Of a stretch of DNA of 64,000 nucleotides, positions 36,608 to 53,389 are shown piece by piece (positions within the stretch are counted from its first letter, which is position 1; each line of letters opens with the position of its first letter). The notes under the pieces were generated by a model, which had not been told where the DNA came from, made no database searches, and worked only from the letters and a program-made list of their open reading frames with translations. Origin of the DNA: Marinisporobacter sp. (GTDB lineage Bacteria > Bacillota > Clostridia > Peptostreptococcales > Thermotaleaceae); NCBI GenBank assembly GCA_025210395.1, contig JAOARV010000020.1:25318-89317 (forward strand), written 5' to 3'. The translations under genes and the position numbers were made by a program.

Positions 36608-36610
36608 AGG
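36608..36610. other. Attachment core, left junction
   Basis: Minus strand GGACGCCT^ACTCATATAG: element to the left of the break, host codons (ACT CAT ATA GTG) to the right. The shared triplet is CCT. Confidence 0.75.
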
Positions 36611-36639
36611 CGTCCTTTAAACACAATCCATCATGCTTA

Positions 36640-36672
36640 AAAGGAAAAGACAGTCCCTTTCTTGACTGTCCA
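36640..36672 (-). terminator. Terminator of the element's catabolic operon
   Basis: Stem GACAGTC / GACTGTC, 8-base loop, followed on minus by TTTTCCTTTT. It stops the operon just inside the element boundary. Confidence 0.75.
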
Positions 36673-36685
36673 TTTATTATAACTT

Positions 36686-37876
36686 TTACTCCTCATTCAA
36701 AAGAGCTAATATTGTATTAACCTGCATGATTATCCCTATTTTCATACAATCTTCATCTACCATAAACTGCTTATTATGGAGGGATGCCACTATTCCTTTT
36801 TCCTCATTTCTACAACCTAAATGAAAAAAAGCAGATGGAACTTTGTCAGCAAAGTACGAAAAATCTTCTCCTCCCATACTAGGGAACTCTTTATAAACGA
36901 TGTTCTCCTCTCCTAATATCTTTATTGCTACATCTCTCATTACATCAACAACATAATCATCATTGATCAGTGCAATATAACCATCTTTAAATGCTACCTC
37001 TGCACTTCCTCCTAATCCTAGAGAAACATTTTCTGCTATTCTTTTAATTTTTTCTTTTGCAGCTACTCTACTTTGAGTAGCAAGTGTTCTTAATGTACCC
37101 TCTAAAATTACTTTATCCGTAATAATATTTGCTTTTTCTCCACCGTATATTTTACCAAAAGTTAATACGACTGAGTCTAGTGGCGAAACATTTCTACTCA
37201 CAAGAGTTTGTAAGCTTGTAATCACATGCCCTGCAATAACAATAGCATCTACTGCCTTGTCTGGATAAGCAGCATGCCCTGATTTTCCATTTATAGTGAT
37301 TTTAACACTCCCTGAATTCCCATTAAGCTTTCCATACTTTAACTCTACTTTGCCTACATCAACATTTGGCATTACATGTAAACCTATTACATGATCTACT
37401 TTAGGATTTTCTAAGCATCCATCCTTAATCATTCTATCAGCTCCACCAATTGCTTCTTCCGCAGGCTGAAAAAATAGTTTAACATTTCCCTTTAACTCAT
37501 TTTCCATTTCTTTCAATAGTTTACCTGCACTAAGAAGAATGGCCGTATGAACATCATGTCCACAAGCATGCATGACTCCATCATTAACAGAACCATAATC
37601 ATAATCAGCTATTTCTTTGATAGGAAGTGCATCTATATCCGCCCTAATTGCTATGGTTTTTCCTGTACCTTTTTTTCCTCTTATTATTCCTACAATCCCC
37701 GTATCTGCAATTCCAGTTTCATATTCTATACCCCATTGGTCAAGATACTGGCAGATCTTCTTCCCAGTTCTTATTTCTTTTCCACTTAATTCTGGATGTT
37801 TATGAAAATCTCTACGAATTGAAACAATCTCTTCAAAAATTTCTTCTACTCTATCTTTTATATTCAACGCTTTCAT
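36686..37876 (-). CDS. M20-family amidohydrolase (N-acyl amino acid or peptide deacylase)
   Basis: 396 residues of the M20D family. Metal site HACGHDVHTAILLSAGKLL, the glutamate in QPAEEAIGGADRM, and the late GGEDFSYFADKVPSAFFHLG. Cytoplasmic di-zinc hydrolase of amide bonds such as N-acyl amino acids or dipeptides. Last gene of the operon; its start overlaps the racemase end by about 26 bases, so they are translationally coupled. ATG 37876 with GGGGAGA directly upstream, or TTG 37867 with better spacing. Probably finishes breakdown of imported compounds (inference). Confidence 0.85.
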   Translation of the reverse strand: MKALNIKDRVEEIFEEIVSIRRDFHKHPELSGKEIRTGKKICQYLDQWGIEYETGIADTGIVGIIRGKKGTGKTIAIRADIDALPIKEIADYDYGSVNDGVMHACGHDVHTAILLSAGKLLKEMENELKGNVKLFFQPAEEAIGGADRMIKDGCLENPKVDHVIGLHVMPNVDVGKVELKYGKLNGNSGSVKITINGKSGHAAYPDKAVDAIVIAGHVITSLQTLVSRNVSPLDSVVLTFGKIYGGEKANIITDKVILEGTLRTLATQSRVAAKEKIKRIAENVSLGLGGSAEVAFKDGYIALINDDYVVDVMRDVAIKILGEENIVYKEFPSMGGEDFSYFADKVPSAFFHLGCRNEEKGIVASLHNKQFMVDEDCMKIGIIMQVNTILALLNEE

Positions 37877-39023
37877 TCTCCCCTTCACACAAGTAATTTA
37901 ATATCTTATCAATCTTATTGTTTTTTATATAAACTCTTGGGGTTCTTCTTGTAATTCTTGAAATAATTTCATTTTTATTAGTATCTCCAAGCTTTGATAC
38001 CTCTTGTATATCAAGGGTATTGTTGCTTCCGTCACCATAAATGACTACATGGTCTCCTTCTTTTACAAATGGTATATCTGTAACATCCACCATACATTGA
38101 TCCATACATATAACACCTATTATAGGCGCCCTGTGACCATTAATCGTTACCATTCCAACGCCAGCCATATTCCTTGGATATCCATCTGCATAACCAAAAG
38201 GTATCGTCCCTATTATACTATTTCTATGGGCCTTCCATTTATAATTGTAACTCACTCCTTCTCCCTTTTTTATTTTTTTTATATAATATATCTTTGATTT
38301 AAAGGTTAGTACCTGCTTAAGATCTATATCATTTTTCCTAAAGGATTTTAATCCATATAATATAGCTCCAGGTCTTATCATGTTGAGATTAAATTCAGGA
38401 TAATCAATAGCTGATATACTATCACAAATATGCTTATATTTTAATTTATTTCCTGACTTTTCAATCTTATCAATAGCATTCATAAAATCATTAAATTGTT
38501 TTTTATTTGCTTCATCACCAGCAAGGGCAAAATGTGAAAATATCCCCTCTACTATAATATTTTCTAATTTGAAAATTTCAATAATTTCATCAATACTCTC
38601 TTGACAATCTCTATATCCTAATCTATTAAACCCTGTGTCATATTTAATATGAACTACCGCTTTTTTATCTTTTAATTTACTTAAGTCATTTAATATCCTC
38701 GCCTGCTCTATTGAAAAAATACACTGGGTTATATTATTGTCTATGACGTATTCTAGGTATTCATCAGGAGTATATCCCATAATAAATATCTTATATTCAG
38801 GATATACATTTCTAAGTTCAAGTGCCTCTGTAAGGGTAGCTACTGCCAAACAATCTCCACCATTTTCCATTATGGTTTTTGCTATTTCAACTGCACCATG
38901 CCCATATCCATTCGCTTTAACCACTGCGGCTATGGCTACATTTTCTCCTACAAATTGCCTTATTTTTCTTATGTTATATGCCATATGGTCAAGATTTATT
39001 TCTACATAAGTATCTCTTAACAT
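37851..39023 (-). CDS. Alanine racemase-family protein
   Basis: 390 residues, full-length fold-type III PLP racemase: PLP lysine in VVKANGYGHGAVEIA near residue 38, catalytic Tyr region NMIRPGAILYGLKSF and the C-terminal barrel with VICMDQCMVDVTDIP. Typical substrate is Ala, but within this catabolic operon a broader amino acid racemase is equally possible. ATG 39023, seven bases after GGGAGG. A second, housekeeping alr would be expected elsewhere in the genome. Confidence 0.88.
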   Translation of the reverse strand: MLRDTYVEINLDHMAYNIRKIRQFVGENVAIAAVVKANGYGHGAVEIAKTIMENGGDCLAVATLTEALELRNVYPEYKIFIMGYTPDEYLEYVIDNNITQCIFSIEQARILNDLSKLKDKKAVVHIKYDTGFNRLGYRDCQESIDEIIEIFKLENIIVEGIFSHFALAGDEANKKQFNDFMNAIDKIEKSGNKLKYKHICDSISAIDYPEFNLNMIRPGAILYGLKSFRKNDIDLKQVLTFKSKIYYIKKIKKGEGVSYNYKWKAHRNSIIGTIPFGYADGYPRNMAGVGMVTINGHRAPIIGVICMDQCMVDVTDIPFVKEGDHVVIYGDGSNNTLDIQEVSKLGDTNKNEIISRITRRTPRVYIKNNKIDKILNYLCEGENESVEYKR

Positions 39024-39042
39024 GATCATTCCTCCCTACAAC

Positions 39043-40650
39043 CTATAATCCTATAGCTTTCCCATCTCTTCTAGGATCTGCTCCACCGATCATAGTACCA
39101 TCTTCCATGAACTTAATTCCATGGATACCTCCCATTTTCTTATCCCAAGGAAGGACTTTTATCATATCATGACCCATATGAGCTAATTGATCAATTACTA
39201 CCGATGACATTCTATCTTCATAGAACAACTTATTCGTAGTGTTTTGTGTAATCCTAGGAGAATTAATTGCATCTTGAATATCCATGTGATGATCAATAAT
39301 CTTAGATATAACTTGAACTACAATATTGATTATTCTCGCTCCACCAGGAGAACCTACTACTACAAATGGCTTATCATCTTTTAAGATAATAGTCGGTGCC
39401 ATAGTACTTAGAGATTTTTTTCTGCTATCTACAGAATTGACATGGTTCTTTTTAATAGAAAAATCAGCCATAGTATCATTGAGAAGAATTCCCGTCCCCT
39501 CTGCAACCAAGCAAGAACCAAAGAAATGATTAATGGTCTTAGTAACAGATACAAGATTCCCTTGTTTATCTCCTATACTATAATGTGTTGTATCATCGTG
39601 TTCATAGGTCCAAGGATCATAAATATTGGGATTTTGAGATATATTAGGATCTATTCTTTTAGCTAAAATATTAGCATATTTCTTTGATGAAAGACCTTTT
39701 AAGGGAACATCCACAAAATTTGTATCCCCCATATATTTAGCTCTATCTGCATAAGATAATTTAAAAACCTCTGAAAACAAGTGTAAATATTCTGAAGAAT
39801 TCACTTCTAATTTACTCACATTGAAATTTTCTAATATATTAAGAGTCTGAATAATATGTGTTCCTCCAGAACTAGGAGGGGGAGATGATATAATTTTATA
39901 TCCTCTATATTCTCCAATAACAGGTTCTTTTAATTCTACCTTATATTCTTCAAGATCATTATGGGTCATTATTCCCCCATGCTTCCTAATAGTTTTAATC
40001 ATTGAGTCAGCAATTTCACCTTTATAAAATTTTTCTCTGCCTCCTACTGAAATTTCTCTTAAGCTATTTGCTAAATCTAAGTTCCTAAATATTTCTCCTT
40101 CTTTATAATATTGCTTATTTCTTAAAAAAATCCTTGAAGCATTTTCACATTTCATAAGATATTTAGCATATTGCTTTAACATTTCTTCCATCATTTTTGT
40201 TACAACAATACCTTCTTCAGCTAATTTAATAGATGGTGCCATAACCTGAGGAAGGGCCATAGTTCCATATGTTTCTAGTGCATAGATCATGCCAGCTACC
40301 TCTCCAGGAATACTTACAGATTTTGCTCCTATGGCATTTTCCTTATTCACTACCTTCCCATCATTACCAATTTGCCACATATCAGGACATGCGTTCTTAG
40401 GAGCAACTTCTCTAAAATCAATAAATATTGGTTCGTCAAAAGATGGGGTAACAATCGTCATAAATCCCCCGCCTCCCAATCCTGATGTTGCTGGTTCACA
40501 CACCCCCAAAGCAAAGCCTACTGCAACAGCCGCATCTATTGCATTTCCTCCCCTTTTAAGAATATCTATTCCTATTTGGGAGGCTTGTTCCTTCCCACTT
40601 GAAACCATTGCTTTTTCCCCAATACTTCTTCTATTTTTCAATTTATCCAT
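39043..40650 (-). CDS. ggt: Gamma-glutamyltransferase, cytoplasmic form
   Basis: 535 residues. Contains the GGT core: GGNAIDAAVAVGFALGVCEP, SSGGTHIIQ, and the nucleophile DDTTHYS with catalytic Thr at about residue 355, followed by the LLND and GSPGGARIINIV motifs. There is no signal peptide, unlike secreted GGTs, so it should act in the cytoplasm on imported gamma-glutamyl compounds. Precursor cleavage before that Thr is expected. ATG 40650 after GGGAG. Adjacent to a paralogue, probably a duplication. Confidence 0.92.
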   Translation of the reverse strand: MDKLKNRRSIGEKAMVSSGKEQASQIGIDILKRGGNAIDAAVAVGFALGVCEPATSGLGGGGFMTIVTPSFDEPIFIDFREVAPKNACPDMWQIGNDGKVVNKENAIGAKSVSIPGEVAGMIYALETYGTMALPQVMAPSIKLAEEGIVVTKMMEEMLKQYAKYLMKCENASRIFLRNKQYYKEGEIFRNLDLANSLREISVGGREKFYKGEIADSMIKTIRKHGGIMTHNDLEEYKVELKEPVIGEYRGYKIISSPPPSSGGTHIIQTLNILENFNVSKLEVNSSEYLHLFSEVFKLSYADRAKYMGDTNFVDVPLKGLSSKKYANILAKRIDPNISQNPNIYDPWTYEHDDTTHYSIGDKQGNLVSVTKTINHFFGSCLVAEGTGILLNDTMADFSIKKNHVNSVDSRKKSLSTMAPTIILKDDKPFVVVGSPGGARIINIVVQVISKIIDHHMDIQDAINSPRITQNTTNKLFYEDRMSSVVIDQLAHMGHDMIKVLPWDKKMGGIHGIKFMEDGTMIGGADPRRDGKAIGL

Positions 40651-40676
40651 GCTCACTCTCCCTGATTATATTCATA

Positions 40677-42320
40677 TTAGTAACCAATTGCTACGCCATC
40701 CCTTCTTGGATCTGCTGCTCCTTCTATTAAGTGTTCATCTGTATACTTAATACCTTGAACACCTCCTAATTTTCTATCATATTTTTGTAATTTATTAACA
40801 ATATGTCCTTTATTCTCTAGTTCTTCTATGGTACCCTTAGCTATTCTACTTTCATATAACATGATTCCATTTATATCGTTAGATATTCTTGGGGAATTGA
40901 TGGCTTCTTCTATGTTCATATTGTGATCGATAAGTTTAGATATTACTTGAGATACAGTAGTAATGATTCTGTTACCACCAGGAGATCCTAACACTGCAAA
41001 AGGTTTTTTATCCTTTAATATGATCGTAGGACTCATTGAACTTAAGGGCTTCTTCTTAGGTCCTACTGAGTTTGCTTTACCTTCACCTATTGAAAAACCT
41101 CTCATCTGACAATTACATACTATTCCTGTATTCTTGGGTACTACCCCTGATCCAAAAAAAGCACTTATGGTTTTCGTCACAGATACCATATTTCCATCCT
41201 TATCTGCTATAGAATAGTGTGTGGTATCAGTAGATTCGAAATCAAAAGGATTATCGAATTTATATTTATTTGCTTTTTTTATATCTATTTTACCAGCAAG
41301 TTTCTTCCCATACCCTTTAGCTATCAAACCTTTAATAGGTACATGACAAAAGTTTGGATCACCCATATATTTCATCCTATCTGCAAAACACATTTTAAAT
41401 ATTTCGGATAATATATGTAAATATTCAGCTGAATTAACCTCATATGATGAAATATCAAAGTTTTCTAAAATATTTAGAATCTGTATAATATGGGTACCAC
41501 CAGAACTAGGAAGTGGGGAAGATATAATCTCGTAGCCCCTATAACTTCCCCTAATAGGCTTTAATTGATTAACCCTATAATTTTCTAAGTCTTCTCGTGT
41601 CATGATCCCAGAATGCTTCCGTACAGATTCAACAATGCAATCAGCAATAGCACCTTTATAAAATCCATTTTTTCCTTCTTTAGCAATTTTTCTAAGGGTG
41701 TTAGCAAGTGGTCTATTTATAATTTTCTCTCCTACTTCATAATCTCTTAAAAAGACATTTCCATCTTCCTCAAATCGTAACAATTTATCCTTATATTCAT
41801 CTATATCACGTTTTAACGTATCCGTCACAACAAAGCCCTGTTCTGCTAAATGTATAGCAGGTGCTAAAACCTCCTCTAAATTCATTGTTCCATAGTTTTC
41901 TAAAGCAAAGATCAGTCCTGCAACTTCACCTGGCACACAAATAGATTTTCCTCCCTCAGATTTCTCATTACCTATCACACCACCCTGATCATCCATCTTC
42001 CACATAGATGGCACAGACCCATTTGGTGCAATTTCTCTAAAATCTAGAAATATATTTTCTTTATCTTCACCAAGTCTAATAGTCATAAATCCTCCCCCAC
42101 CTATACCAGATGCATTTGGTTCACATACCCCTATTGCGAATCCAACAGCAACGGCTGCATCTATAGCATTGCCCCCACTTTTTATTATATCTATTCCTAT
42201 CTTGGAAGCTTCAAATTTAGCAGTGGATACCATACCATTTATACCAATATCTCCTCTATTATTCCTAATTATTTCTCCTTTTTCATTTGTTAATTGAAAA
42301 TTATTATAGTTATCTTTCAT
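40677..42320 (-). CDS. ggt: Gamma-glutamyltransferase, second cytoplasmic paralogue
   Basis: 547 residues. Same layout as its neighbour: GGNAIDAAVAVGFAIGVCEP, SSGGTHIIQ, STDTTHYS with catalytic Thr near 367 and GSPGGNRIITTVSQVI. No signal peptide. The two copies differ throughout, so they are old paralogues, perhaps forming a mixed complex or differing in substrate. ATG at 42320 behind AGAGGGATG. Linked by 20 bases to the next gene. Confidence 0.92.
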   Translation of the reverse strand: MKDNYNNFQLTNEKGEIIRNNRGDIGINGMVSTAKFEASKIGIDIIKSGGNAIDAAVAVGFAIGVCEPNASGIGGGGFMTIRLGEDKENIFLDFREIAPNGSVPSMWKMDDQGGVIGNEKSEGGKSICVPGEVAGLIFALENYGTMNLEEVLAPAIHLAEQGFVVTDTLKRDIDEYKDKLLRFEEDGNVFLRDYEVGEKIINRPLANTLRKIAKEGKNGFYKGAIADCIVESVRKHSGIMTREDLENYRVNQLKPIRGSYRGYEIISSPLPSSGGTHIIQILNILENFDISSYEVNSAEYLHILSEIFKMCFADRMKYMGDPNFCHVPIKGLIAKGYGKKLAGKIDIKKANKYKFDNPFDFESTDTTHYSIADKDGNMVSVTKTISAFFGSGVVPKNTGIVCNCQMRGFSIGEGKANSVGPKKKPLSSMSPTIILKDKKPFAVLGSPGGNRIITTVSQVISKLIDHNMNIEEAINSPRISNDINGIMLYESRIAKGTIEELENKGHIVNKLQKYDRKLGGVQGIKYTDEHLIEGAADPRRDGVAIGY

Positions 42321-42379
42321 TTTTTCATCCCTCTAATAAAATTTTTGAGTCAACATAATACTTATAGCTTATAATTAGA

Positions 42380-43135
42380 TCATAAGATTATTTTTTCAAT
42401 AAATTCAGTAATTTTATTAATGACAATTTCATTCATCTCTTTACCAAACTCAATACTTGCTTTTGTTGCATCTCCTAAAGCGCCATTTTCTGTAACTTCT
42501 CTATAATCCCAAAAAATACTACCCCCATGGGCATATTTCTTGATTAAATATTTTGTATCATCTTTGAACTTGGCTTTTTCTAAAGAATCATATCTCACGT
42601 GCTCTGGTGCTAAATACATAGTTTGAGATGTTTCAACCTCACATGCATGGCCTTTAAATTTAGAAAAACCATGTTCATTACTTAAATCTGTTACTAGACT
42701 TCCACCTATTCCACTCATATAAATATCCATATCAAATTCTTTTTTAGCTTCTGAAGCATATTCTTGAATAGGGCGTTTATTTCCACCATGTCCTGATAAA
42801 AATAAAATTTTTTTAAACCCATGTTGTTTAAAGCTCCAGCATATGTCCCTTAAAATCTTTAAATAAGTTTCTAAAGAAAAGGTTATTGTACCTGGGAACT
42901 TCATATGATGATAAGAGAGACCAATAGGTAACGTAGGTGCAATAAGAACCTTATCACCAAAAACATCTCCTATCATTTCGCCTATTTTTTTTGCTCTGAT
43001 GGTATCTGTTGAAAAGGTTGTATTCGGTCCATGCTGCTCAGTAGATCCCACTGGTATGATAATTAATTCTACTTTATCTTTTACTTTCTGTAATTCCTGC
43101 CAAGTCATATTCTCTAAAATTAATGCCTTACTCAT
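42380..43135 (-). CDS. Creatininase-family amidohydrolase
   Basis: 251 residues. Family motifs: LIIPVGSTEQHGPNTTFSTD (metal Glu and His), FLSGHGGNKRPIQEYA and GHACEVETSQTM with metal-binding Glu. These enzymes hydrolyse cyclic or linear amide bonds, e.g. creatinine, formamides or mycofactocin precursors, so the true substrate is open. ATG at 43135 with GGAGGAG. It overlaps the preceding ABC gene by 8 bases, so it belongs to the same operon. Confidence 0.85.
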   Translation of the reverse strand: MSKALILENMTWQELQKVKDKVELIIIPVGSTEQHGPNTTFSTDTIRAKKIGEMIGDVFGDKVLIAPTLPIGLSYHHMKFPGTITFSLETYLKILRDICWSFKQHGFKKILFLSGHGGNKRPIQEYASEAKKEFDMDIYMSGIGGSLVTDLSNEHGFSKFKGHACEVETSQTMYLAPEHVRYDSLEKAKFKDDTKYLIKKYAHGGSIFWDYREVTENGALGDATKASIEFGKEMNEIVINKITEFIEKIIL

Positions 43136-44135
43136 TTTTATCTCCTCCATATAAATGACACATTACTTTATGTCCATGACCCATATCAATCTCTTTTGGT
43201 TCTACACTTTTACATATCTCCATACATTTAATGCATCTTGGATGAAATCTACATCCTGTTGGCAAATCAACTGGATTTGGTGCTTCTCCCTTGATTTTTT
43301 GCAAACTAAGTTTTAGTTCAGGATCTGGATTCGGTACCGCTTCTAATAAGGCTTGTGTATAGGGATGATATCTCTTTTTTATTAACTCCTCTGTATTACC
43401 TTGCTCTACAATTTTTCCTAAATACATAACAGCCGTTCGGTCACTTGTGTATCTCACAAGTGATATATCATGGGAAATGACTACCCCTGCTAAATTTTTG
43501 TCTAAAATCATTTTTCTTAATAATCTTAATATACCTGCTCTAATTGATACATCTAACATAGATACAGGTTCATCTGCTATAAGAAAAGCTGGATCAAGAA
43601 CTAAAGCTCTAGCTATTGCTACTCTTTGTCTTTGTCCCCCACTCATTTCATGAGGAAATCTTTCCATAAATTGATCTGCAGGTTTTAGTCCTGATTCTTC
43701 TAATATTTCTTTAGCAAGCTCATATCTCTCATGTTTATCTTTCCCTATACCATGAATTTCTAGTGGTTCCATGATTGTATCTTTTATTCTAAATCTTGGA
43801 TTGAGTGATTCATATGGATCCTGAAAAACCATTTGCGCTTTTCTTCTAAAATCTTTCAATTGTTTCTTGTCTAATTTAGAAATATCTCTATCTCCTAAAA
43901 CAATCTTTCCACTTGTAGGTGGATACAAACCTAAAAGTAGCTTTGCAGTAGTAGTTTTGCCACAACCACTTTCACCTACAATTCCTAACGTTTCACCTTC
44001 ATTGACATATATATTTATTCCATCTACGGCTTTTAGCGTTTTAACCTCTCTAATCCTGCCCTTTCCCTTCATCTTGACTGTAAATTCTTTTCTCAAGTCG
44101 ATAGCTTCTATTAATTTTTGATTTGCATTAGTCAT
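43128..44135 (-). CDS. dppF: Oligopeptide/dipeptide ABC transporter ATP-binding protein (DppF type)
   Basis: 335 residues. Walker A GESGCGKTT, signature MSGGQRQRVAIARAL, Walker B FLIADEPVSMLD; the C-terminal extension of peptide transporters has PTGCRFHPRCIKCMEIC with four Cys, which bind an Fe-S cluster in this family. ATG 44135, seven bases after AGGAG. Second ATPase of the operon; pairs with the next. Confidence 0.92.
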   Translation of the reverse strand: MTNANQKLIEAIDLRKEFTVKMKGKGRIREVKTLKAVDGINIYVNEGETLGIVGESGCGKTTTAKLLLGLYPPTSGKIVLGDRDISKLDKKQLKDFRRKAQMVFQDPYESLNPRFRIKDTIMEPLEIHGIGKDKHERYELAKEILEESGLKPADQFMERFPHEMSGGQRQRVAIARALVLDPAFLIADEPVSMLDVSIRAGILRLLRKMILDKNLAGVVISHDISLVRYTSDRTAVMYLGKIVEQGNTEELIKKRYHPYTQALLEAVPNPDPELKLSLQKIKGEAPNPVDLPTGCRFHPRCIKCMEICKSVEPKEIDMGHGHKVMCHLYGGDKNE

Positions 44136-44152
44136 ATTTTCACTCCTATTAA

Positions 44153-45154
44153 TTAACGCTCCCATGTTTCAGGTAAATCAGCGAGCTCTCTTAATTTTTC
44201 TCTTTCTTCTCCTCTTATACAGTAAAAGAAACTATTATTTACACTTGTTTTTTCAATATCACCTGTTTTACACTTATCTAATACAAAAGGACATCTCTGA
44301 GCAAAACGACAACCCGTTAATTGTTGAGATAAATCAGGAGGGGTTCCTGCTATAGATACTAATTCCTTCTTTTCTCCTGTTAATGAAGGAAATGCATTTT
44401 TAAGTCCCATTGTATAAGGATGATTTGGCTTTTTTAACACCTGAATTACATCTCCATATTCTATAATCTTACCTCCATACATGACTGCAACTTTATTACA
44501 AGTTTGGGCGACTACAGATATATCGTGGGTTACTAATATCATGGAACCTTCATATCCTTCAAGAAGCTTGTTAATTCTCTCTAATATCTGGGACTGGACG
44601 ATTACATCTAATGCAGTAGTTGGCTCATCAGCAATAATTAGTTTTGGATTCAAGGCTAAAGACATAGCTATAATAGCTCTTTGCTTCATTCCTCCACTAT
44701 ACTGATGTGGAAAATCTTCTAATCTACCTCTTTCTAATCCTACAATATCAAATAATTTTTCAGCTCTTTCTATGGCCTCTTTTTTACTTACCTGATCATG
44801 CTCAATAATAGCTTCTGTAATTTGTTTTCCTACTCTATATACTGGATTAAGTGAGTTCATAGCACTTTGAGTAATCATAGAAATCTCTTTCCATCTCTTT
44901 TTTCTTATTTCCTCTTTTGAGAGTTTTATCATATCTACCCCATCAAATACTATCTCTCCACTAGAAACCCTACCATTAGATGGAAGTAACCTGATGATAC
45001 TTTTAATGATCGTACTTTTGCCACATCCACTCTCTCCAACTAAACCTAATATATCTCTATTTTCAATATTAAGCGATACATGATCTACAGCCTTCAATGC
45101 TCTATTGGAAAGCTTATATTCTACTGAAACATCTCTTAATTCTAATAATGCCAT
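44153..45154 (-). CDS. dppD: Oligopeptide/dipeptide ABC transporter ATP-binding protein (DppD type)
   Basis: 333 residues. Walker A GESGCGKST, signature YSGGMKQRAIIAMSL, Walker B LIIADEPTTALD, and the C-terminal Cys cluster LTGCRFAQRCPFVLDKC. Drives peptide import with DppF. Follows the permease directly. Confidence 0.92.
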   Translation of the reverse strand: MALLELRDVSVEYKLSNRALKAVDHVSLNIENRDILGLVGESGCGKSTIIKSIIRLLPSNGRVSSGEIVFDGVDMIKLSKEEIRKKRWKEISMITQSAMNSLNPVYRVGKQITEAIIEHDQVSKKEAIERAEKLFDIVGLERGRLEDFPHQYSGGMKQRAIIAMSLALNPKLIIADEPTTALDVIVQSQILERINKLLEGYEGSMILVTHDISVVAQTCNKVAVMYGGKIIEYGDVIQVLKKPNHPYTMGLKNAFPSLTGEKKELVSIAGTPPDLSQQLTGCRFAQRCPFVLDKCKTGDIEKTSVNNSFFYCIRGEEREKLRELADLPETWER

Positions 45155-45155
45155 G

Positions 45156-46007
45156 TTATCTCTCCCTTAACTTTGGATTTACTATTTCTTCAATTGCTCT
45201 CCCCATCATATAGCCAGACAATACTAATAATGTAATAGCTATTCCAGGTGGGATAATCCACCAAGGAGCTTTAAAAACAGCTTGGGATGAATAACATGTA
45301 AATAATATTCTCCCCCAGCTTACCTGCATAGGGTCTCCTAAACCTAGAAAGCTTATACTAGATTCAGACATTATTGCTGATGCCATGGTTGTAGCAACAT
45401 ATACGAGAGATATTGGCATAACATTTGGTGCTATATGCTTATACAGTATTCTTGTATCACTGGCACCACTTAATTTTACCGCTTCAATAAACGTTCTATT
45501 TTTTATGGATAAAACCTGAGACCGAATTACCCTTGATGAGTTTCTCCATGTAATTAAAACAATAGCTAATATAACATTTTGAACACCAGGACCTAAAACG
45601 GATACAAGTATAAGGGCAAAGGGTAAAAACGGCAAACCATACATTATATCTACTATTCCCATAAGCACTCTATCTACCTTTCCACCAAAGTATCCGGCAA
45701 TTAGCCCTACATTCGTTCCAATAAATGCAACACAAACAGCTGAGATACAACCTACTAATACAGCAATTCTTGAACCGATCACCATCTGTGAAAATATATC
45801 TCTACCCATATATGTTGTTCCTAATAAATGTTCTGTTGAGGGAGGAAGTAATCTTTTTACACTTCCATCTGGATGAAATAATATCTCCATAGGATTATAA
45901 GGAGCTATATATTCAGCAAATATAGCTATTATTACAAAGAATGAAAATATAATAAAACCCACAGCTCCTATCTTATTCTTTCTTAGTAGTGTTAATAAAT
46001 TTTTCAT
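45156..46007 (-). CDS. dppC: Peptide ABC transporter permease (DppC type)
   Basis: 283 residues, about six membrane segments; N-terminal segment (about 17-37) before the conserved HLLGTTYMGRDIFSQMVIGS; coupling EAA-type loop SGASDTRILYKHIAPN. Forms the channel with DppB. Confidence 0.92.
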   Translation of the reverse strand: MKNLLTLLRKNKIGAVGFIIFSFFVIIAIFAEYIAPYNPMEILFHPDGSVKRLLPPSTEHLLGTTYMGRDIFSQMVIGSRIAVLVGCISAVCVAFIGTNVGLIAGYFGGKVDRVLMGIVDIMYGLPFLPFALILVSVLGPGVQNVILAIVLITWRNSSRVIRSQVLSIKNRTFIEAVKLSGASDTRILYKHIAPNVMPISLVYVATTMASAIMSESSISFLGLGDPMQVSWGRILFTCYSSQAVFKAPWWIIPPGIAITLLVLSGYMMGRAIEEIVNPKLRER

Positions 46008-46017
46008 GATTCTCCTC

Positions 46018-47004
46018 CTAATCTAGGGATACTCTTGGATCTAAGTATGCATATAAAATATCTGCAAACATATTAAACATAATGGTTGCAAAACCAATAA
46101 ACAAAAATGCACCCTGTGCCATAGGATAATCTCTTGATGCTACTGCAAGCACTATTTCCCTTCCCATTCCTGGCCATCTGAATACAGTTTCTACCAATAC
46201 CGATCCTCCAATAGCAAACCCTACAGATACAGCAAATATCGTAACTACTGGAAGCAAAGCTGTCCTCATTGCATGTCTTCGCATAACCTTTTTCTCCGGA
46301 ATCCCTTTAGCTAAAGCAAGTTCAACAAAGTCTTCTTTTATTACTTCTAACATAGATGTTCTCATCAGTAATGTAGGTGTAGCCATGGAGTAAAGAGCTG
46401 ACGTAATTGCAGGCAATATAAGATGTTTAAGAAAATCTAAACTAGCTATTTTGTCCCAGAAACTAGTAAAGTCACTTCCTATAGTAGTCATACCACCTAA
46501 CGGTAACCACCCTAATTTGAATGAAAATATTGAAAGTAATAACAAGCCTGTCCAAAATACAGGGGCACATCGTATGATCAATGCCATAATAATCCCTATA
46601 TAATCTATCTTCGTATTTCTATGCCAAGCAAGATAACTTCCTGCTAAAATTCCAATAGTATATGCCAAGGAAAGGGCTGTAACCGTTAGTATAAGGGTAT
46701 TAAAAAATCTCTCCCCAATTACATCTAATACGGGTTTGGCGTAGGTAAAAGAATTTCCAAAGTCGCCTATGATTAAGCCTTTTAAATATATGATATATTG
46801 CTGAGAGAGGGGTTTATCTAAACCATATAATTCCATAAGCAACTGTTGTGATTCTTGATCTAATCCTGAATCTATAAACATACTAACAGGGTCACCAGGG
46901 ATTACTCTAAACATGAAGAAAACAATAGATGTTAATATAAATAATGTAAAAAAAGCAATAACAAGTCTTTTCGATATATATTTTAATAATCTCATATTTT
47001 TCAC
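46018..47004 (-). CDS. dppB: Peptide ABC transporter permease (DppB type)
   Basis: 328 residues, six membrane segments. N-terminal motif RVIPGDPVSMFID, coupling loop with LALAKGIPEKKVMRRHAMRT, and closing VETVFRWPGMGREIV and DPRVSLD. Directly downstream of the binding protein. No separate promoter seen. Confidence 0.92.
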   Translation of the reverse strand: MKNMRLLKYISKRLVIAFFTLFILTSIVFFMFRVIPGDPVSMFIDSGLDQESQQLLMELYGLDKPLSQQYIIYLKGLIIGDFGNSFTYAKPVLDVIGERFFNTLILTVTALSLAYTIGILAGSYLAWHRNTKIDYIGIIMALIIRCAPVFWTGLLLLSIFSFKLGWLPLGGMTTIGSDFTSFWDKIASLDFLKHLILPAITSALYSMATPTLLMRTSMLEVIKEDFVELALAKGIPEKKVMRRHAMRTALLPVVTIFAVSVGFAIGGSVLVETVFRWPGMGREIVLAVASRDYPMAQGAFLFIGFATIMFNMFADILYAYLDPRVSLD

Positions 47005-47095
47005 TCTATCCTTTTTTTATTTTTATTATTAAATGATTAGTCCTTTATTAAAATCAGATTAGAATTTAAAATCCTAATCTGATCAAATATCTTTA

Positions 47096-48814
47096 CTATT
47101 CAGGCATTATAGGTGTTGGCTTAAAATCCTTAGGGAAATATAAAGTACCATTTTCATCCCATCTATATCCAGCATCCTCAAGTTCTTTTATTGCCTTATC
47201 TAAATCAAAGTCAAGTTTTTCTATTTCTTGATTTGTCCAGAAGGTATTATCTTCTGAAACAAGTGAAAATGTCTTCAATGCGCCACCATCAAATACTACA
47301 GATACAACTTTTTGTCTTGGTATAGCCATTGTTAAAGCACGTCTTGCATATACATCCTCAAATGGTGCTTTTCTTAAATTGTAATGTATTACATAACTAC
47401 CCATATCAGACAATTCAACAACCTCTATATCAGGGTTCTTATTCACTTCTTCTAGATCTAAAGGAGATAGATTATGGGAAGACATTTCTACTTCACCAGC
47501 AACTAATCCTTGTACGATCCCTAGTGACTGAGCATAAGGTGTTCTTATAATACCGTCTATCTTAGGTACTTGAAAATGATTTTCATTGGATTTTAATACA
47601 AATTCCTCACTAGGTCTCCAATAATCAAATATAAATGGTCCCGAGCCAATAGCAGGAATATTTTCCCATGTAAGTACCCCTTCTGCTCCTTTTTCTTGGA
47701 GTACCTTACTCCAAATATGCTCAGGAAGAATTAGACATAAGGAAAGTGTATTTGATATAAATGGTGCATAAGGTTCTTTAAGCTTGAAAGTCACTTTATT
47801 ATCTCCTGTGATTTCAACAGATTCAATACTTTTTATATGGGGTGCATATGTTGGTGATTTCACTTTCTTAGCGAAATCAAATGTAAACTTTACATCTTCT
47901 ACAGTAAGAGGTTCTCCATCGTGGAACTTTACATCATCTCTAATAGTCACTTCAATAGTCTGATCATCTACTTTGTTAATATTATTCGCTAACCAATTAA
48001 CTGGTTTACCCTCTATGTCTAGCCTTACCAATGGGTCATAGATGTTCTTAAGCATATAAATATCTTGTCCCGTTTTAGTTGTTAATGGATTTAAAAGGGT
48101 AATATCATTTCCTTGACCAAGATTTAGAATCTTATCCTCTGTTATAGGAGTTATATTCATAAAGTTCCAAAAACTATATAACCCTAACCCAATTCCAGGT
48201 GTTACATTCTTAAATTTTTTCTTATTATACGCATTTTTCAATACTGCTTTAAACATAGGAGGCTGCGGTACATCCTTTGCTAGAAGCTCTTGCATTTTTT
48301 TTGCAGCTTTTTGCCTTTCTTTCATATCAAGATTAGTTGCAAATATATCAACCAACTCTTCATACTTTGGATTAATATATCCAGCTACATTGTATCCCCC
48401 CTCTTTAGCTTCTTCAGCAGAATTCATAGAAACCAACCAATGATATGGATCCACTCTTTCTGGTTTTCCTCCCCATCTAATCATAAAAACATCATGTTCA
48501 TGAGCCTTCATCCCTTTTGCAGACATGGTAGCCCATTCTAGTGTTTCAGTATTTACGCGAAAACCTAATTTCCTCCAATTTTCTGCTATCATAAGCCCTG
48601 CTTCATATCTTATGGGGTCTTTTGTTTGTGACTGAATCCAAAAATTAATCTCGGGTACTTTATCAGCTTCATCTAACTCGGATGCAGGTGTTACAGTAAT
48701 ATTTCCTTTTGATGGATCCTTTACTTGTTGTTTTCCACATGCAGTTACTATGCTCAATAGCATAGTCAACATAGTAATTATAGCAATAACCTTCCTCATC
48801 TTTTTCACTTTCAA
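47096..48814 (-). CDS. Peptide-type ABC substrate-binding lipoprotein with circularly permuted domain order
   Basis: 572 residues. Signal peptide and lipobox (VTAC, Cys 26). The SBP family 5 fold is present but its order is rotated: residues about 55-222 (RYEAGLMIAENWRKLGF, DVFMIRWGGKPERVDPYHW) match what is normally the C-terminal segment, while 228-572 (NLGQGNDITLLNPLTTK, FHDGEPLTVEDVKFTFDF, GSGPFIFDYW, VYARRALTMAIPRQK) match the usual N-terminal and middle parts, ending at EDAGY. Captures a peptide or similar compound outside the cell. TTG start with AGGAG at seven bases. First gene of the operon, behind a sigma-54 promoter. Confidence 0.88.
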   Translation of the reverse strand: MKVKKMRKVIAIITMLTMLLSIVTACGKQQVKDPSKGNITVTPASELDEADKVPEINFWIQSQTKDPIRYEAGLMIAENWRKLGFRVNTETLEWATMSAKGMKAHEHDVFMIRWGGKPERVDPYHWLVSMNSAEEAKEGGYNVAGYINPKYEELVDIFATNLDMKERQKAAKKMQELLAKDVPQPPMFKAVLKNAYNKKKFKNVTPGIGLGLYSFWNFMNITPITEDKILNLGQGNDITLLNPLTTKTGQDIYMLKNIYDPLVRLDIEGKPVNWLANNINKVDDQTIEVTIRDDVKFHDGEPLTVEDVKFTFDFAKKVKSPTYAPHIKSIESVEITGDNKVTFKLKEPYAPFISNTLSLCLILPEHIWSKVLQEKGAEGVLTWENIPAIGSGPFIFDYWRPSEEFVLKSNENHFQVPKIDGIIRTPYAQSLGIVQGLVAGEVEMSSHNLSPLDLEEVNKNPDIEVVELSDMGSYVIHYNLRKAPFEDVYARRALTMAIPRQKVVSVVFDGGALKTFSLVSEDNTFWTNQEIEKLDFDLDKAIKELEDAGYRWDENGTLYFPKDFKPTPIMPE

Positions 48815-48860
48815 ATTTATTCTCCTTTCGTTATAGGAATAATGATTTATTTTTTATATT

Positions 48861-48876
48861 TGCAAGAATTATGCCA
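48861..48876 (-). promoter_or_regulatory. Sigma-54 (-24/-12) promoter of the catabolic operon
   Basis: Minus strand TGGCATAATTCTTGCA: TGGCA and TTGCA with GG and GC spaced ten bases, matching TGGCAC-N5-TTGCW. It lies 47 bases before the binding-protein start codon. Confidence 0.88.
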
Positions 48877-48946
48877 TATTTTTTCATTTGTTTATCCCTT
48901 CAGAATGTTCAGAATTGAAAGATAATTAGAGTTTTAGTAAAAATAT

Positions 48947-48992
48947 TTGTATTAATTGTTTTAACATTCACCACTTAATACATTTAATACAA
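48947..48992. promoter_or_regulatory. Candidate upstream activating sites for the sigma-54 regulator
   Basis: TTGTATTAA (48947-48955) and TTAATACAA (48984-48992) are a perfect 9-base inverted repeat; a third half-site TTAATACA is at 48975-48982. They lie 70-115 bases upstream of the -24 element, the usual enhancer range. Confidence 0.45.
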
Positions 48993-49001
48993 TTATAATT
49001 T

Positions 49002-51008
49002 TTATATATTTAGATGGGCTATACCTTTTTGTGTTATTTTCGTACCACCTCTTCCTTTAGAAATACTTACCAACCCCATACTTTTAAGAATTAGGAGCTC
49101 TTTTCTAACCTCTTGTTCACTTAAAAAAATAGACATCTTCATCAACTCATTAGATATTTGTTTTCTTCCTATCTTCATATTTTGCTTATTTTTATCATAT
49201 AGTATTCTCAATATGGCTTCTCTTTTTCTTTGGAATTCTAGTTTAGTCGTATTTATTGCGTCTACGGTCCTATCATTATTTTTCATATTATCTGGTAAAT
49301 CACTAAGAGAAATTTTTCTTTTACCTAAATTAATCATGTATTCTATACAATTTCTCAACTCACGTATATTTCCATCCCAAGAGTATTTAGTGAAATAATC
49401 TCTAACATCTTCATCTAAAACTAAATACTCCCCACGATTTTTGATGATCTTATCAAAAATTTCTAAAACATCATCTCCACGATTTCTTAATGGCGGAATA
49501 TTTAGAGGGAGAACGCTTAACCTATAATATAAATCCCTTCTAAACTTTCCTTCTTTCACTTGCCTTTTTAAATCTATATTTGTAGCTACTATGATTCTTA
49601 CATTTATATCTATAATATGATTACTGCCTATTCTCATAATTTCTTTTTCTTGTAATACTCTTAATAATCTTGTTTGTAAATGAAAGGGAATCTCTCCTAT
49701 CTCATCTAGAAATAAAGTTCCATCATTAGCAATTTCAAAAAGACCTCTTTTTCCGCCTTTTTTAGCACCTGTAAATGCCCCCTCTTCATATCCAAACAAT
49801 TCACTTTCCAAAAGATTTTCGGGTATAGCCGAACAATTTACAGCAACAAATTGTTCTTTTTTCCTTCTCGAATGATTGTGTATCACATGTGCTAATAGTT
49901 CTTTACCGGTTCCACTTTCACCAGTAATAAGTACTGTTGAATCACTTTTAGCCATTCTGACCGCAATATCTTTTACTTTCTGTATTTCATAGCTCGAGCC
50001 AATCATATCGTTTATAGTATATTTAGATTTATGTCCTTTATCTTTAAGCTCTTTTTTATACAAATGTATTTTCATCTCAGCATCATTATATTTTTTGAGT
50101 ATTACTAAGCCATAATCATTACTACCTATTGTTATTTTAGGTACAATATTACAAATTAAATGTGTATTATTTATTTTGATAATGGTTTCCACAAATTCTC
50201 CCTCAAAAATAATATTTTTATCAATAGGAATAATATCTGTAATTTTTTTTCCTAAAATATTATGTGTAGCTTTATTAAGAAAAACTTGAACACTATTACT
50301 ACTACTAGTCACCTCCCCTACACTATTAAAAATCAATACCCCTTCGTTTAAGTTCTCAAAAAGTACATTGATAATATTTTCTAGCATAAATCTTTCACTT
50401 ATTACAAAAGAAACGCCATCGTTATTCACTTTCTTTACACTACTTCTCTGCATAAGTTTTCCTAATAATTTCTTTTTATCCAAATCAAAATAGGATATGA
50501 TTTCTAAAAAAGTTTTTGTATCTAAAGTAGTATTAAAAATATCTATCACTTTCCCTCCGTAATTAGGTACTAAATCAAGTTCTCCTTGACTCAATATAAT
50601 ATTTACTTTTTTATATTTTTCAATACCAGGATAGTAAGGATGTAGATCTAAATCCGTTCTCCCAAGTGCATATATAAGATATATACTCTCGGATACTGTC
50701 TTAGGTCCTACATTCACCACAAGAGCTTCTGAACCATATGGTATTTCTTTTATTTTTTCAATTCCTTCATAACTTAAACTCTTTACAATTTTAATAATTT
50801 TACAGTGTTGATTAACATATTTCATAATATTATCAATAATCGTGTATGTAGTAATTAATACCATATCATAATCACGGACCATTTGAATATTATTGCTATC
50901 CGATGTAACATAATCAATTTGAATTTCGTCAACAAAAAAATCCCTTAATTCTTGACAATAGTATCTTCCTATACCTTTTGCTTTAGCGACTACAATTAAT
51001 TTTTTCAT
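49002..51008 (-). CDS. Sigma-54-dependent enhancer-binding regulator
   Basis: 668 residues. N-terminal sensor region (1-190) of the PrpR-N type, a PAS-like region (about 205-310), AAA+ domain with Walker A GESGTGKE (363-370), GAFTGA (410-415) contacting sigma-54, and Walker B TLFLDEIGE; the end is a winged-helix region (VRKELLILKSMGLVSISKGR) instead of a Fis helix. It should activate the operon promoter when an effector binds. ATG 51008 with AAAGGAACGG upstream; an in-frame TTG ten codons earlier is possible. Confidence 0.9.
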   Translation of the reverse strand: MKKLIVVAKAKGIGRYYCQELRDFFVDEIQIDYVTSDSNNIQMVRDYDMVLITTYTIIDNIMKYVNQHCKIIKIVKSLSYEGIEKIKEIPYGSEALVVNVGPKTVSESIYLIYALGRTDLDLHPYYPGIEKYKKVNIILSQGELDLVPNYGGKVIDIFNTTLDTKTFLEIISYFDLDKKKLLGKLMQRSSVKKVNNDGVSFVISERFMLENIINVLFENLNEGVLIFNSVGEVTSSSNSVQVFLNKATHNILGKKITDIIPIDKNIIFEGEFVETIIKINNTHLICNIVPKITIGSNDYGLVILKKYNDAEMKIHLYKKELKDKGHKSKYTINDMIGSSYEIQKVKDIAVRMAKSDSTVLITGESGTGKELLAHVIHNHSRRKKEQFVAVNCSAIPENLLESELFGYEEGAFTGAKKGGKRGLFEIANDGTLFLDEIGEIPFHLQTRLLRVLQEKEIMRIGSNHIIDINVRIIVATNIDLKRQVKEGKFRRDLYYRLSVLPLNIPPLRNRGDDVLEIFDKIIKNRGEYLVLDEDVRDYFTKYSWDGNIRELRNCIEYMINLGKRKISLSDLPDNMKNNDRTVDAINTTKLEFQRKREAILRILYDKNKQNMKIGRKQISNELMKMSIFLSEQEVRKELLILKSMGLVSISKGRGGTKITQKGIAHLNI

Positions 51009-51167
51009 AAAATATCCGTTCCTTTCATATTTATTCAAAATACAAATCCTAAAAATTCATTTGTATTGCTTTTATATCCATAAAAATAACGCCTTAAGCT
51101 AATTTGAATTTAGTATAAGACAAAAAAAATTATTTATTCGAAATAAGTTACTATTACATAGATCTAT

Positions 51168-51213
51168 AAAAAAAGACAGCTCTCTATCAAAACTTCGAGA
51201 GCTGTCTTTTTTT
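51168..51213 (-). terminator. Terminator after the recombinase gene
   Basis: Perfect 14-base stem AAAAGACAGCTCTC / GAGAGCTGTCTTTT, 12-base loop, T run on both sides. It isolates the recombinase unit from the regulator gene. Confidence 0.88.
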
Positions 51214-51239
51214 ATAACACAAAATTAAAATCAATCCAC

Positions 51240-52805
51240 TTAAAAATTCCAATAAACCTTTACCCTTTGATTTTTTTCCTCTTGATTCTTCTCTCCTATT
51301 TCAATATAGTCTATGAACTGATTTACCATCCCACGGGTTAGCTTTTTAAAATTCTTATAATTTTTAACGACTTCCTCCTTATAATTCCTATTCTCCATTT
51401 TATTTTTTATTGTACTAATCTCTTCCTTTATCTTATCTTTTCTTTGAATCAGTTGTTCTTTATCTTTCGTAAATTTACTATTTAATTCTTTAAATTGCTT
51501 CTCATTAATTACCTGCTTCACTTTATCCATATATAAATTCTTAATTATATGATCTTTATCCATAATCAACTTCCCAATATCATTCACTTTCTTTTCCAAT
51601 GTATATAAATTTCTAACCCATATATCTTCTTTATTTAATCTATCCACTAACTCCTTACTATTCACATTTTCCATATAGTTCTTGATTTTATCAAAAATAA
51701 TCTCTTCTAACACATCTAATCGAATACTATGACTTGTACATAATTGTTTTATTGAACCCCTTGCATATAGTTTGCATCTTAGATATTCATATCCATTACT
51801 TGATCTGACCTTATTCATACTACTTTTACAATCCATACATCTCACTTTTCCTGCCAATAGATGTATCTTTCCTTTTTTAGTCTTTCTAACTTTATTTTCA
51901 AATATTTTTTGGACAGCATAAAATACTTCATGTTGGATAATGGCTTCATGCTTATTTTCTACCTTAATCCATTTGTTTTCTGGATTTTGTATAATCTTTT
52001 TAGACTTATAATTTATTTTTTTTCTCTTTCCTTGAACCATATTTCCAATATAAACTTCATTTTTAAGAATTCTTCTAATGGTAGTTTTATTCCATAATCC
52101 ATAACCATCTGTCTGAGAGGAATTTTTATATTTAAATCCTCTATCCCGTTTGTATTTAGTAGGGTTAGATATCCCCTTTTCATTAAGGATATTTGCAATA
52201 TTTTGTGTTCCATATCCTTCTAGATACCAGTTAAATATACTTTTTACAATATAATCAGCCTTTTCATCGATAATCAGCTTATTATGATCTTGTGGATCTT
52301 TTTTGTATCCATAGGGTGCAAAAGAACCTATAAATTTTCCTTCTTCTCTTTTTATTTTAAAGGTAGCTCTTATGGCTTCACTAATATCCTCACAATACCA
52401 CTCATTCACAAGTCCATTGATTTGCCTTGATTTTTTATTTCCTTTATCTAAAGTATCTACATGATCCGTTATACTTATAAACCGTATTCCCCACTCTGGA
52501 AATTTTCTGTGTAGATATTTCTCAATCACTTCCATATTTCTCGAAAACCTTGACTGATGTTTACATAGTATCATATCAAATTTTCTATTTTGTGCATCCT
52601 TTATCATTTGATTAAAATCAGGTCTATTTGTATCTAATCCAGAATAATTATCATCACTATAAATTTTAAAAATTTCCCACTTATTCTCTATGGCATATTG
52701 TGTTAATAACATTTTTTGATTCTGGATACTTTCGCTCTCATCAAAAATATTATTTTTATCCTTATCTTCATCACTAAGTCTACAATATATAGCAATTTTA
52801 ATCAT
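51240..52805 (-). CDS. Large serine site-specific recombinase
   Basis: 521 residues. Resolvase domain (1-150) with catalytic Ser 11 in YCRLSDED, YSGLDTNRPDFNQMI and the arginine motif HQSRFSRN; Recombinase domain (about 160-270); zinc ribbon with CMDC...CKLYARG...C (about 318-350); long coiled coil (about 375-480). This is the SpoIVCA/TnpX class, which integrates and excises DNA at short core sites. ATG 52805, ten bases after GAGGAG. It sits at the right edge of the element and follows a small coupled ORF. Confidence 0.95.
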   Translation of the reverse strand: MIKIAIYCRLSDEDKDKNNIFDESESIQNQKMLLTQYAIENKWEIFKIYSDDNYSGLDTNRPDFNQMIKDAQNRKFDMILCKHQSRFSRNMEVIEKYLHRKFPEWGIRFISITDHVDTLDKGNKKSRQINGLVNEWYCEDISEAIRATFKIKREEGKFIGSFAPYGYKKDPQDHNKLIIDEKADYIVKSIFNWYLEGYGTQNIANILNEKGISNPTKYKRDRGFKYKNSSQTDGYGLWNKTTIRRILKNEVYIGNMVQGKRKKINYKSKKIIQNPENKWIKVENKHEAIIQHEVFYAVQKIFENKVRKTKKGKIHLLAGKVRCMDCKSSMNKVRSSNGYEYLRCKLYARGSIKQLCTSHSIRLDVLEEIIFDKIKNYMENVNSKELVDRLNKEDIWVRNLYTLEKKVNDIGKLIMDKDHIIKNLYMDKVKQVINEKQFKELNSKFTKDKEQLIQRKDKIKEEISTIKNKMENRNYKEEVVKNYKNFKKLTRGMVNQFIDYIEIGEKNQEEKNQRVKVYWNF

Positions 52806-52819
52806 TCAATAAACGCTCC

Positions 52820-52951
52820 TCAATGTATATGCATATTACTTTCATGATTTTTTATCATATAAAAAAGTAACTCTTCAAAACGTTTTATTCTTTTTTTCTC
52901 ATCTTTATTTTTAAAAACATCTTCAACAATTATATTGATTTTTGCAGACAA
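52820..52951 (-). CDS. Small ORF upstream of the recombinase; candidate directionality factor
   Basis: 43 residues: MSAKINIIVEDVFKNKDEKK then RIKRFEELLFYMIKNHE and a short tail. TTG start at 52951, five bases after GGGGG. Its TGA overlaps the ribosome site of the recombinase, so both are translated together. Small partner proteins near serine recombinases set excision versus integration, e.g. SprB of SPbeta; similarity to any is not established. Basic and helical, suited to bind protein or DNA. Confidence 0.6.
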   Translation of the reverse strand: MSAKINIIVEDVFKNKDEKKRIKRFEELLFYMIKNHESNMHIH

Positions 52952-52968
52952 ATTAATCCCCCTGATAA

Positions 52969-52996
52969 ACTCTATGAAAAATATCCTTTGTCCTAT
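52969..52996 (-). promoter_or_regulatory. Sigma-E-like promoter of the recombinase unit
   Basis: ATA (52996-52994), 17-base spacer, CATAGAGT (52976-52969): one mismatch to CATACAnT. It lies 18 bases before the small ORF. spoIVCA of B. subtilis is also mother-cell sigma-E controlled. Confidence 0.45.
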
Positions 52997-53089
52997 GTAT
53001 AATTTTTTCTCTAATCTGAAAATAAAAAAGGAAACCTTACAGATTATGTTTTTTACATAGATTCTTTTTTTATAATATTTATTTTGTAC

Positions 53090-53389
53090 TTAAAAAACCC
53101 CTTCCTGAGGTGCTGTTCCATCTAACATAGCTATCTTTAAATCTGGTATCACAATTCCATCTAATGAATCATTATCGGATGAGCATTGATGAAACTCTAC
53201 ATCATACCCTTTATCTACCATCTCATAGCCTATTTTTTTCATAAAAGAGGATTTTCCTACACCAGGTCCTCCTTTAATAACAAATAATCTTTTTGCGTCA
53301 TTTCCGATGATATAATCGTAATAAGAGTAAAATCCCTTTGCTGTATTTCCTCCTGGAAATATTTTTTTGATCCAACCTTTTTTACCCAT
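53090..53389 (-). CDS. Split P-loop ATPase gene (PRK06851-like), 5' part of 94 codons plus element tail
   Basis: ATG 53389 with AAAGGGGG eight bases before. Residues 1-94 are the N-terminal P-loop domain: IKKIFPGGNTAKGFYSYYDY, Walker A KGGPGVGKSSFMKKIG and VIPDLKIAMLDGTAP. After Pro94 (53110-53108) the reading frame enters the element: QEGVF then stop. Unrearranged, it would give a 99-residue truncated protein with Walker A but no second domain. The rest of the gene is at 35789-36607. The intact protein would be 366 residues with tandem ATPase-like folds. Function unknown. Confidence 0.88.
   Translation of the reverse strand: MGKKGWIKKIFPGGNTAKGFYSYYDYIIGNDAKRLFVIKGGPGVGKSSFMKKIGYEMVDKGYDVEFHQCSSDNDSLDGIVIPDLKIAMLDGTAPQEGVF
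53108..53110. other. Attachment core, right junction
   Basis: Minus strand GGAACAGCACCT^CAGGAAGGG: host codons (GGA ACA GCA CCT) to the left, element to the right. Paired with the core at 36608-36610. Confidence 0.75.

Follow-up and report, generated by a model that had tools for sequence, protein, structure and literature searches.

Excision of skin from sigK in C. difficile (PMC5025042) and of SPbeta from spsM (PMC4191935) is described as taking place in the mother cell and restoring the interrupted gene, and both elements use a large serine recombinase together with a small directionality protein. Their content is reported as prophage or prophage-like, as is that of two elements in other spore genes, yin, which lies in C. 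botulinum yabG, and vfbin, which lies in spoVFB (PMC10747680). In Bacillus cereus ATCC10987, the sporulation gene gerE is split by gin, an element whose excision during sporulation was shown experimentally and which is described as having no phage genes, three serine recombinase genes, and a 9-bp core (PMC5595907), so gene-intervening elements free of phage genes are already known. Here, we describe a 16,503-bp element in a 64,000-nucleotide stretch of DNA from Marinisporobacter sp. (assembly GCA_025210395.1, contig JAOARV010000020.1), which we call the window. The assembly comprises 3.4 Mb in 67 contigs and is 91.6% complete, and the window lies within its contig 15. The element interrupts a gene of the PRK06851 or dual-wield NTPase (dwNTPase) family that is likely needed for calcium dipicolinate (CaDPA) loading, and we consider it highly probable that it is excised in the mother cell and the gene thereby restored. 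It most likely works like SPbeta, skin, and gin, by analogy with which excision, mother-cell timing, and trigger are predicted. It differs from gin in its target gene, a single recombinase, a 4-bp common core, a metabolic operon, and a lineage that spans many Clostridia; from skin and SPbeta, it differs in content and target, and its small protein is likened to theirs by size only.

The interrupted gene lies on the minus strand in two pieces, 53389-53108 and 36604-35789. The first (53108..53389) supplies the N-terminal 94 codons, including the P-loop GGPGVGKSS, and matches positions 5-94 of the NF005320 (PRK06851) profile, while the second (35789..36604) supplies the C-terminal 271 codons plus the stop codon at 35789-35791 and matches positions 96-363. 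These complementary matches bear out the sequence-only reading of this DNA, a model's earlier note, which had seen a P-loop ATPase gene split by an element with both pieces on the minus strand. The break falls at the Pro94/His95 codons. The two junctions read, on the minus strand, CAGCACCTCAGGAAGGGG on the N side and CGCCTACTCATATAGTGG on the C side, and the word common to both is CTCA, at 53109-53106 and 36606-36603. Crossover inside CTCA yields DGTAP-HIVDP and a protein of 365 aa in an exact reading frame. We place the crossover there because the Pro codon runs directly into CAT in the 8 intact genes compared (20 loci scanned, in one orientation). The gene is uninterrupted in two genomes of the same genus (G001 and G003), and the intact same-genus gene at locus L009 encodes 365 aa and reads DGTAPHIVDP. 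By coordinates, the element spans 36603-53105. The sequence-only reading was right that removal restores the frame, but it joined the pieces 3 bases off, at CCT; the ACT kept by its C part, from 36607, is element sequence, and its 366-residue protein and 16,500-bp element at 36608..53107 are superseded accordingly. A join at CCT would give DGTAP-T-HIVDP, with an extra Thr that is absent from the 8 intact genes. The uninterrupted homolog that it had suggested seeking in relatives does exist in the same genus, at 365 rather than 366 residues. Its assignment to PRK06851-type proteins holds for the family but not for the curated label: the intact gene matches NF005320 over positions 5-362 and has the N-terminal P-loop, whereas the pieces score 123 and 222 bits and L009 scores 351.6 bits against a curated cut-off of 556 bits. 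On profile coverage, membership in the PRK06851/dwNTPase family holds, and the NF005320 equivalog label is inapplicable to the split gene.

As the sequence-only reading had noted, the element carries a large serine recombinase at its edge. The reading frame (51240..52805, minus strand; 521 aa) is intact, begins about 300 bp inside the N-side edge, and matches Pfam Resolvase, Recombinase, Zn_ribbon_recom, and DUF4368 as well as PHROG 95 (integrase). Against NF041201 (XisF), it scores 107.8 bits, under the cut-off of 375. XisF is an excision recombinase of the same broad family that removes the fdxN element of cyanobacteria in a terminal cell type, there from another gene and in another cell type. 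Junction comparison and attachment site (att) symmetry place the two att sites on the minus strand at 53080..53133 (N side, core CTCA at 53106-53109) and 36577..36632 (C side, core CTCA at 36603-36606). Their inner arms form an imperfect attP-like inverted repeat centered on CA, with symmetry at 16 of 27 positions compared with 7.0 after shuffling, and none of 500 shuffles was as good. Among the 18 sites tested, no more than 3 of 500 shuffles were as good in 14 cases, and 11 of 500 in L103. Symmetric attP sites have been described for serine recombinases (PMC5595907). With its own serine recombinase, att sites at its edges, and a target gene that is restored in frame by precise removal, the window element has these features in common with skin/gin-type elements. 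A phage origin was considered and rejected: all 676 phage records with a match lie below 60% identity, and the best among the matches listed reach 46% over part and 34% over full length. The best plasmid match is 40.5% identical, and none of 18 viral contigs that contain relatives carries a dwNTPase gene in the stretch examined.

The same break recurs in relatives of the window genome. All 16 genomes of its GTDB family have a dwNTPase gene, which is split in 6 (G000, G002, G005, G010, G014, and G015, with the ends in G010 on two contigs) and unsplit in 10, counting G004, whose match reaches a contig edge; G002 is of the same genus as the window. An order-wide search matched dwNTPase at 1e-8 in 153 of 393 genomes, and 13 of the 393 are split at profile positions 93-97 with a recombinase of the window lineage: the 6 above plus G017, G034, G102, G106, G124, G203, and G266. 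Among these, the pieces in G034 are also on two contigs, and G017 has an N piece plus a complete gene. A recombinase match at 1e-110 was found in 30 of the 393 genomes, and the 12 best fall in 12 of the 13 split genomes; the G034 recombinase is read in two frames, which lowers its match. By coordinates, G203 and G266 have elements of about 53 and 59 kb. In the split relatives examined, a serine recombinase separates or adjoins the two pieces; the exception is G202, whose ends are on different contigs and whose examined stretches yielded no recombinase. A gene naturally in two parts, which the sequence-only reading had named as grounds for refuting it, was looked for, and natural fission is rejected in view of the intact same-genus genes and the recombinases at split relatives, with G202 set aside.

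Other breaks fall outside this lineage. In G194 and G235 (L056 and L057), which belong to another family and share their genus with G202, the break comes one or two codons earlier, around a common AACTGC, and the serine recombinase is a different one, 26-27% identical to the window lineage; by eye, the intervening open reading frames resemble DhaK/DhaL, an aldolase, and a hybrid-cluster protein. In G067, the break is at another residue (~109), the two ends are on different contigs, and the C piece has beside it a third recombinase, which is 31% identical. Matches in G171, G249, G290, and G336 are incomplete or shifted and were left out of the split count; G336 has a recombinase match on a separate contig. 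In G017 (Alkaliphilus transvaalensis; L046/L047), the N piece is followed by a 24-kb stretch with the recombinase and then by a complete gene, and 429 bp with the promoter and the N part are duplicated at 95.8% identity, which would fit repair of the gene next to the element. Complete second dwNTPase genes lie inside the elements of G015 (L045, 5593-6645) and G106 (L060, 3051-4127), where they might stand in for the interrupted copy.

We also scanned a species-genome collection with a recombinase alignment and two peptide patterns and kept the best 80 of 389 relatives, so the figures that follow hold for those 80. A dwNTPase piece accompanies the recombinase at 58 of the 80 loci (N piece in 37, C piece in 38, both in 17), always broken at the same Pro|His codon. 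The Pro codon is followed by CA at all 37 N junctions, all 38 C junctions start with the CA of the His codon, and rejoining is in frame at all 17 two-ended loci, where the elements measure 5.1 to 13.7 kb and the restored protein reads DGT[AS]PH[VI][VI][DE]P. The hosts include Marinisporobacter, Geosporobacter, Anaerosolibacter, Alkaliphilus, Thermohalobacter, Sporosalibacterium, Caloramator, Clostridium, Acetivibrio, Anaerovorax, and many Oscillospiraceae. Recurrence of one codon with one recombinase lineage in these 58 loci and in 13 of 393 genomes points to more than chance. The remaining 22 loci comprise 12 with a CotJC piece, one (L087) with a complete NTPase gene, and 9 without an assigned target. 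In the 12 cotJC loci (L096, L101, L104, L106, L115, L119, L121, L123, L125, L131, L149, and L150), the N pieces end at DHGV in five and elsewhere in L104 and L119, and the C pieces start with HGV or HGL in eight. CotJC was confirmed by family search in L121, where the pieces match the Mn_catalase profile at 1-95 and 114-197 and adjoin CotJB and CotJA, and at the other loci by motif and alignment by eye. A recombinase tree (quick method, 86 rows) needs 7 changes of the dwNTPase label compared with 21.1 after shuffling, indicating that targets are clustered. All 12 cotJC rows group with 5 unassigned rows in a single 17-row branch with full support, a sister clade that adjoins the Oscillospiraceae rows of the dwNTPase group.

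Directly upstream of the window recombinase and on the same strand lies a small reading frame (52820..52951, minus strand) that starts with TTG and encodes 43 aa. Homologs occupy the same position in 41 of the 80 loci, and about 40 residues form a core that is conserved among them and the window protein; of these 42 proteins in all, 5 served as seeds, and E-values are valid within this small set only. Known directionality factors are described as similarly small, with 72 aa in CD1234 (PMC5025042) and 58 aa in SprB (PMC4191935), and we regard the small protein as a candidate recombination directionality factor.

The target gene links the element to sporulation. PRK06851 proteins have been described as dual-wield NTPases (PMC10949312). 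The C. difficile family member Cd630_32980 (CD3298) is reported to depend on SigE for its expression in the mother cell and to be needed for CaDPA loading, with mutant spores holding <1% of wild-type dipicolinic acid (DPA) (PMC5509370, PMC10449524, PMC3789822); two groups are at odds on its role in germination and agree on DPA (PMC5509370, PMC10449524). Since CD3298 is under SigE control and CaDPA loading requires it, we take excision in the mother cell to be the best explanation for the window element. The spoVFB gene acts in DPA synthesis, and the same pathway has therefore been hit before, by vfbin (PMC10747680). Between the window and split G002, dN/dS is 0.09 for the N piece, 0.23 for the C piece, and 0.21 for the recombinase; between the window and intact G001, it is 0.07 and 0.29 for the N and C pieces. 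Values so far below 1 imply purifying selection on both pieces as well as on the recombinase, and the pieces thus evolve like a working gene. Upstream of the split gene, a promoter-like site of the SigK (mother-cell) type, CAC-N16-AATAGAATA, lies at 53433..53460 (minus strand). The pattern, defined after the sequences had been viewed, has 2 matches on both strands of the 64 kb, this site being one of the two, and by eye a site occurs at the equivalent position in 8 of 9 family genes, G015 being the exception.

We propose that the small protein would switch the recombinase to excision and that the recombinase would then join the two att sites in the mother cell and free the element as a circle, restoring the NTPase gene before CaDPA loading. 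The forespore genome would retain the element, and its cargo for peptide uptake and gamma-glutamyl/D-amino-acid metabolism, governed by a sigma-54 activator, would be inherited. The skin-like character put forward in the sequence-only reading is thus supported by intact same-genus genes, the attP-like repeat, an intact recombinase, conserved pieces, and the role of CD3298 in CaDPA loading. Several results weigh against this proposal. The window gene is assigned its likely CD3298-like role by family membership, and none of the 393 genomes has an intact relative over the NF005320 curated cut-off. Symmetry is absent in the register tested at 3 of the 18 att sites (L093, L135, and L136), the small protein was undetected in 39 of the 80 loci, and no SigE/SigK-like site precedes the small open reading frame in the 5 elements scanned. 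Finally, neither SigE nor SigK was found above cut-off in the assembly. An assembly gap is likely for SigE, since the syntenic region ends 192 bp from a contig end, an argument that covers SigE only; SigE is above cut-off in 14 of 16 family genomes, all but G000 and G004. Loss of sporulation was considered on these grounds and is countered by the likely SigE gap and by the spoIIA-sigF-spoVA cluster, which is present in the assembly with SpoVAC and, by eye, SpoVAA and SpoVAB.

The strongest competitor of developmental excision is that the gene serves as attachment site for a conventional site-specific integrative element, which is excised rarely, for transfer, with spores arising from an excised minority or being poor in CaDPA. 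Many mobile elements rely on recombinases of this broad type, with transposon-type TndX 33% identical to that of the window, and the other 17 of the 30 genomes with a recombinase match at 1e-110 are unsplit here, although their matches are weaker. Such an element would leave unexplained the purifying selection on both pieces, as in an intact gene, the adherence of the lineage to one codon across many families while its cargo changes, and the sister clade in cotJC, likewise a spore gene. Nor were phage structural or lysis genes recognized among the 10 element proteins compared with PHROGs, in which the recombinase alone falls in an integration family and the others are unknown or generic, and no conjugation gene was recognized in the element either. 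We therefore judge this explanation improbable. A permanent insertion in a dead gene with decaying pieces is less probable still. It could draw on the missing SigE and SigK, the two-frame recombinase of G034, the complete gene besides the N piece in G017, and the second copies in G015 and G106, but low dN/dS in both pieces between two split genomes, in-frame rejoining at 17 of 17 two-ended loci, and the presence of spore genes all speak against decay. That the pieces act in trans as separate polypeptides is barely credible, since, despite two open frames and a possible GTG start of the C piece, that GTG is preceded within a few codons by an in-frame stop and has no evident Shine-Dalgarno nearby, the last residues of the N piece are encoded by the element and vary from one element to another, and every break is an att site.

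Within the window element, the cargo genes all lie on the minus strand. A sigma-54 activator (49002..51038; Pfam Sigma54_activat) is separated from a transporter operon by a sigma-54-like site with one mismatch (48861..48876), the sole match in the window, where 0.89 would be expected by chance. The operon encodes an oligopeptide-type ABC transporter with a binding protein, two permeases, and two ATPases (43128..48814; SBP_bac_5, BPD_transp_1, OppC_N, ABC_tran, and oligo_HPY). It is followed by a creatininase-family amidohydrolase (42380..43150; Pfam Creatininase), two gamma-glutamyltransferases that are 55% identical to each other (39043..42320), an alanine racemase (37851..39029; TIGR00492 above cut-off), and an M20 amidohydrolase/carboxypeptidase (36686..37888; TIGR01891 above cut-off), which together suggest use of gamma-glutamyl or D-amino-acid peptides. 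Other elements carry different genes: polyphosphate kinase and Ppx/GppA in G002; GGDEF-EAL, Lrp, and LysE in G014; a phosphate-type ABC transporter, a response regulator, PHA synthase subunits, and MaoC in G015; and a chemotaxis receptor, a restriction subunit, and a DRT-like reverse transcriptase in G005. In G034, a type IIG restriction enzyme lies upstream of the C piece. The recombinases of G000 and G002 are 82% identical, and the two elements have no cargo protein in common at E 1e-4; G010 and G014 have one in common, 77% identical. Judged from these comparisons, cargo is exchanged wholesale between elements, even between two genomes of the same genus.

We lean toward a broader view, in which a Clostridia-wide recombinase lineage has specialized on mother-cell spore genes, in each of which a single codon provides a cargo bay. 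Interchangeable genes, whether for nutrient uptake, storage polymers, or phage defense, would be kept throughout growth and discarded in each generation only from the doomed mother cell; removal would license CaDPA loading, and at least one unrelated lineage, that of G194 and G235, would have converged on the same gene one or two codons away. The published cases compared are single elements, most of them prophage-like and in few model organisms, whereas here one lineage holds one codon across many Clostridia. As far as our searches show, the target gene, the one-codon lineage with replaceable cargo, and the cotJC clade are new: among the papers listed by a literature search, mostly of titles and abstract openings and covering few subscription journals, there was none on an element in a dwNTPase gene or in cotJC. 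The sequence-only reading had taken both the host gene as a target and a metabolic cargo instead of phage genes to be apparently undescribed; the first agrees with that search, and the second is preceded in principle by the phage-free gin (PMC5595907). The lineage makes it testable why spore genes attract elements, be it harmless removal from a terminal cell or control of timing, and it offers a recombinase, a candidate directionality factor, and att sites as a ready-made toolkit. It also carries a warning, as this NTPase will come out truncated from gene prediction in many spore formers.

The family may hold intervening elements at a second sporulation locus. Several of its genomes, among them G002, G003, G007, G010, G013, and G014, match the SigE model twice, at places separated by ~2.2 to 10 kb, like a two-piece sigK, and these paired pieces probably mark skin elements. 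The two sigK-like pieces of G002 flank a serine recombinase that shares 25% identity with that of the window.

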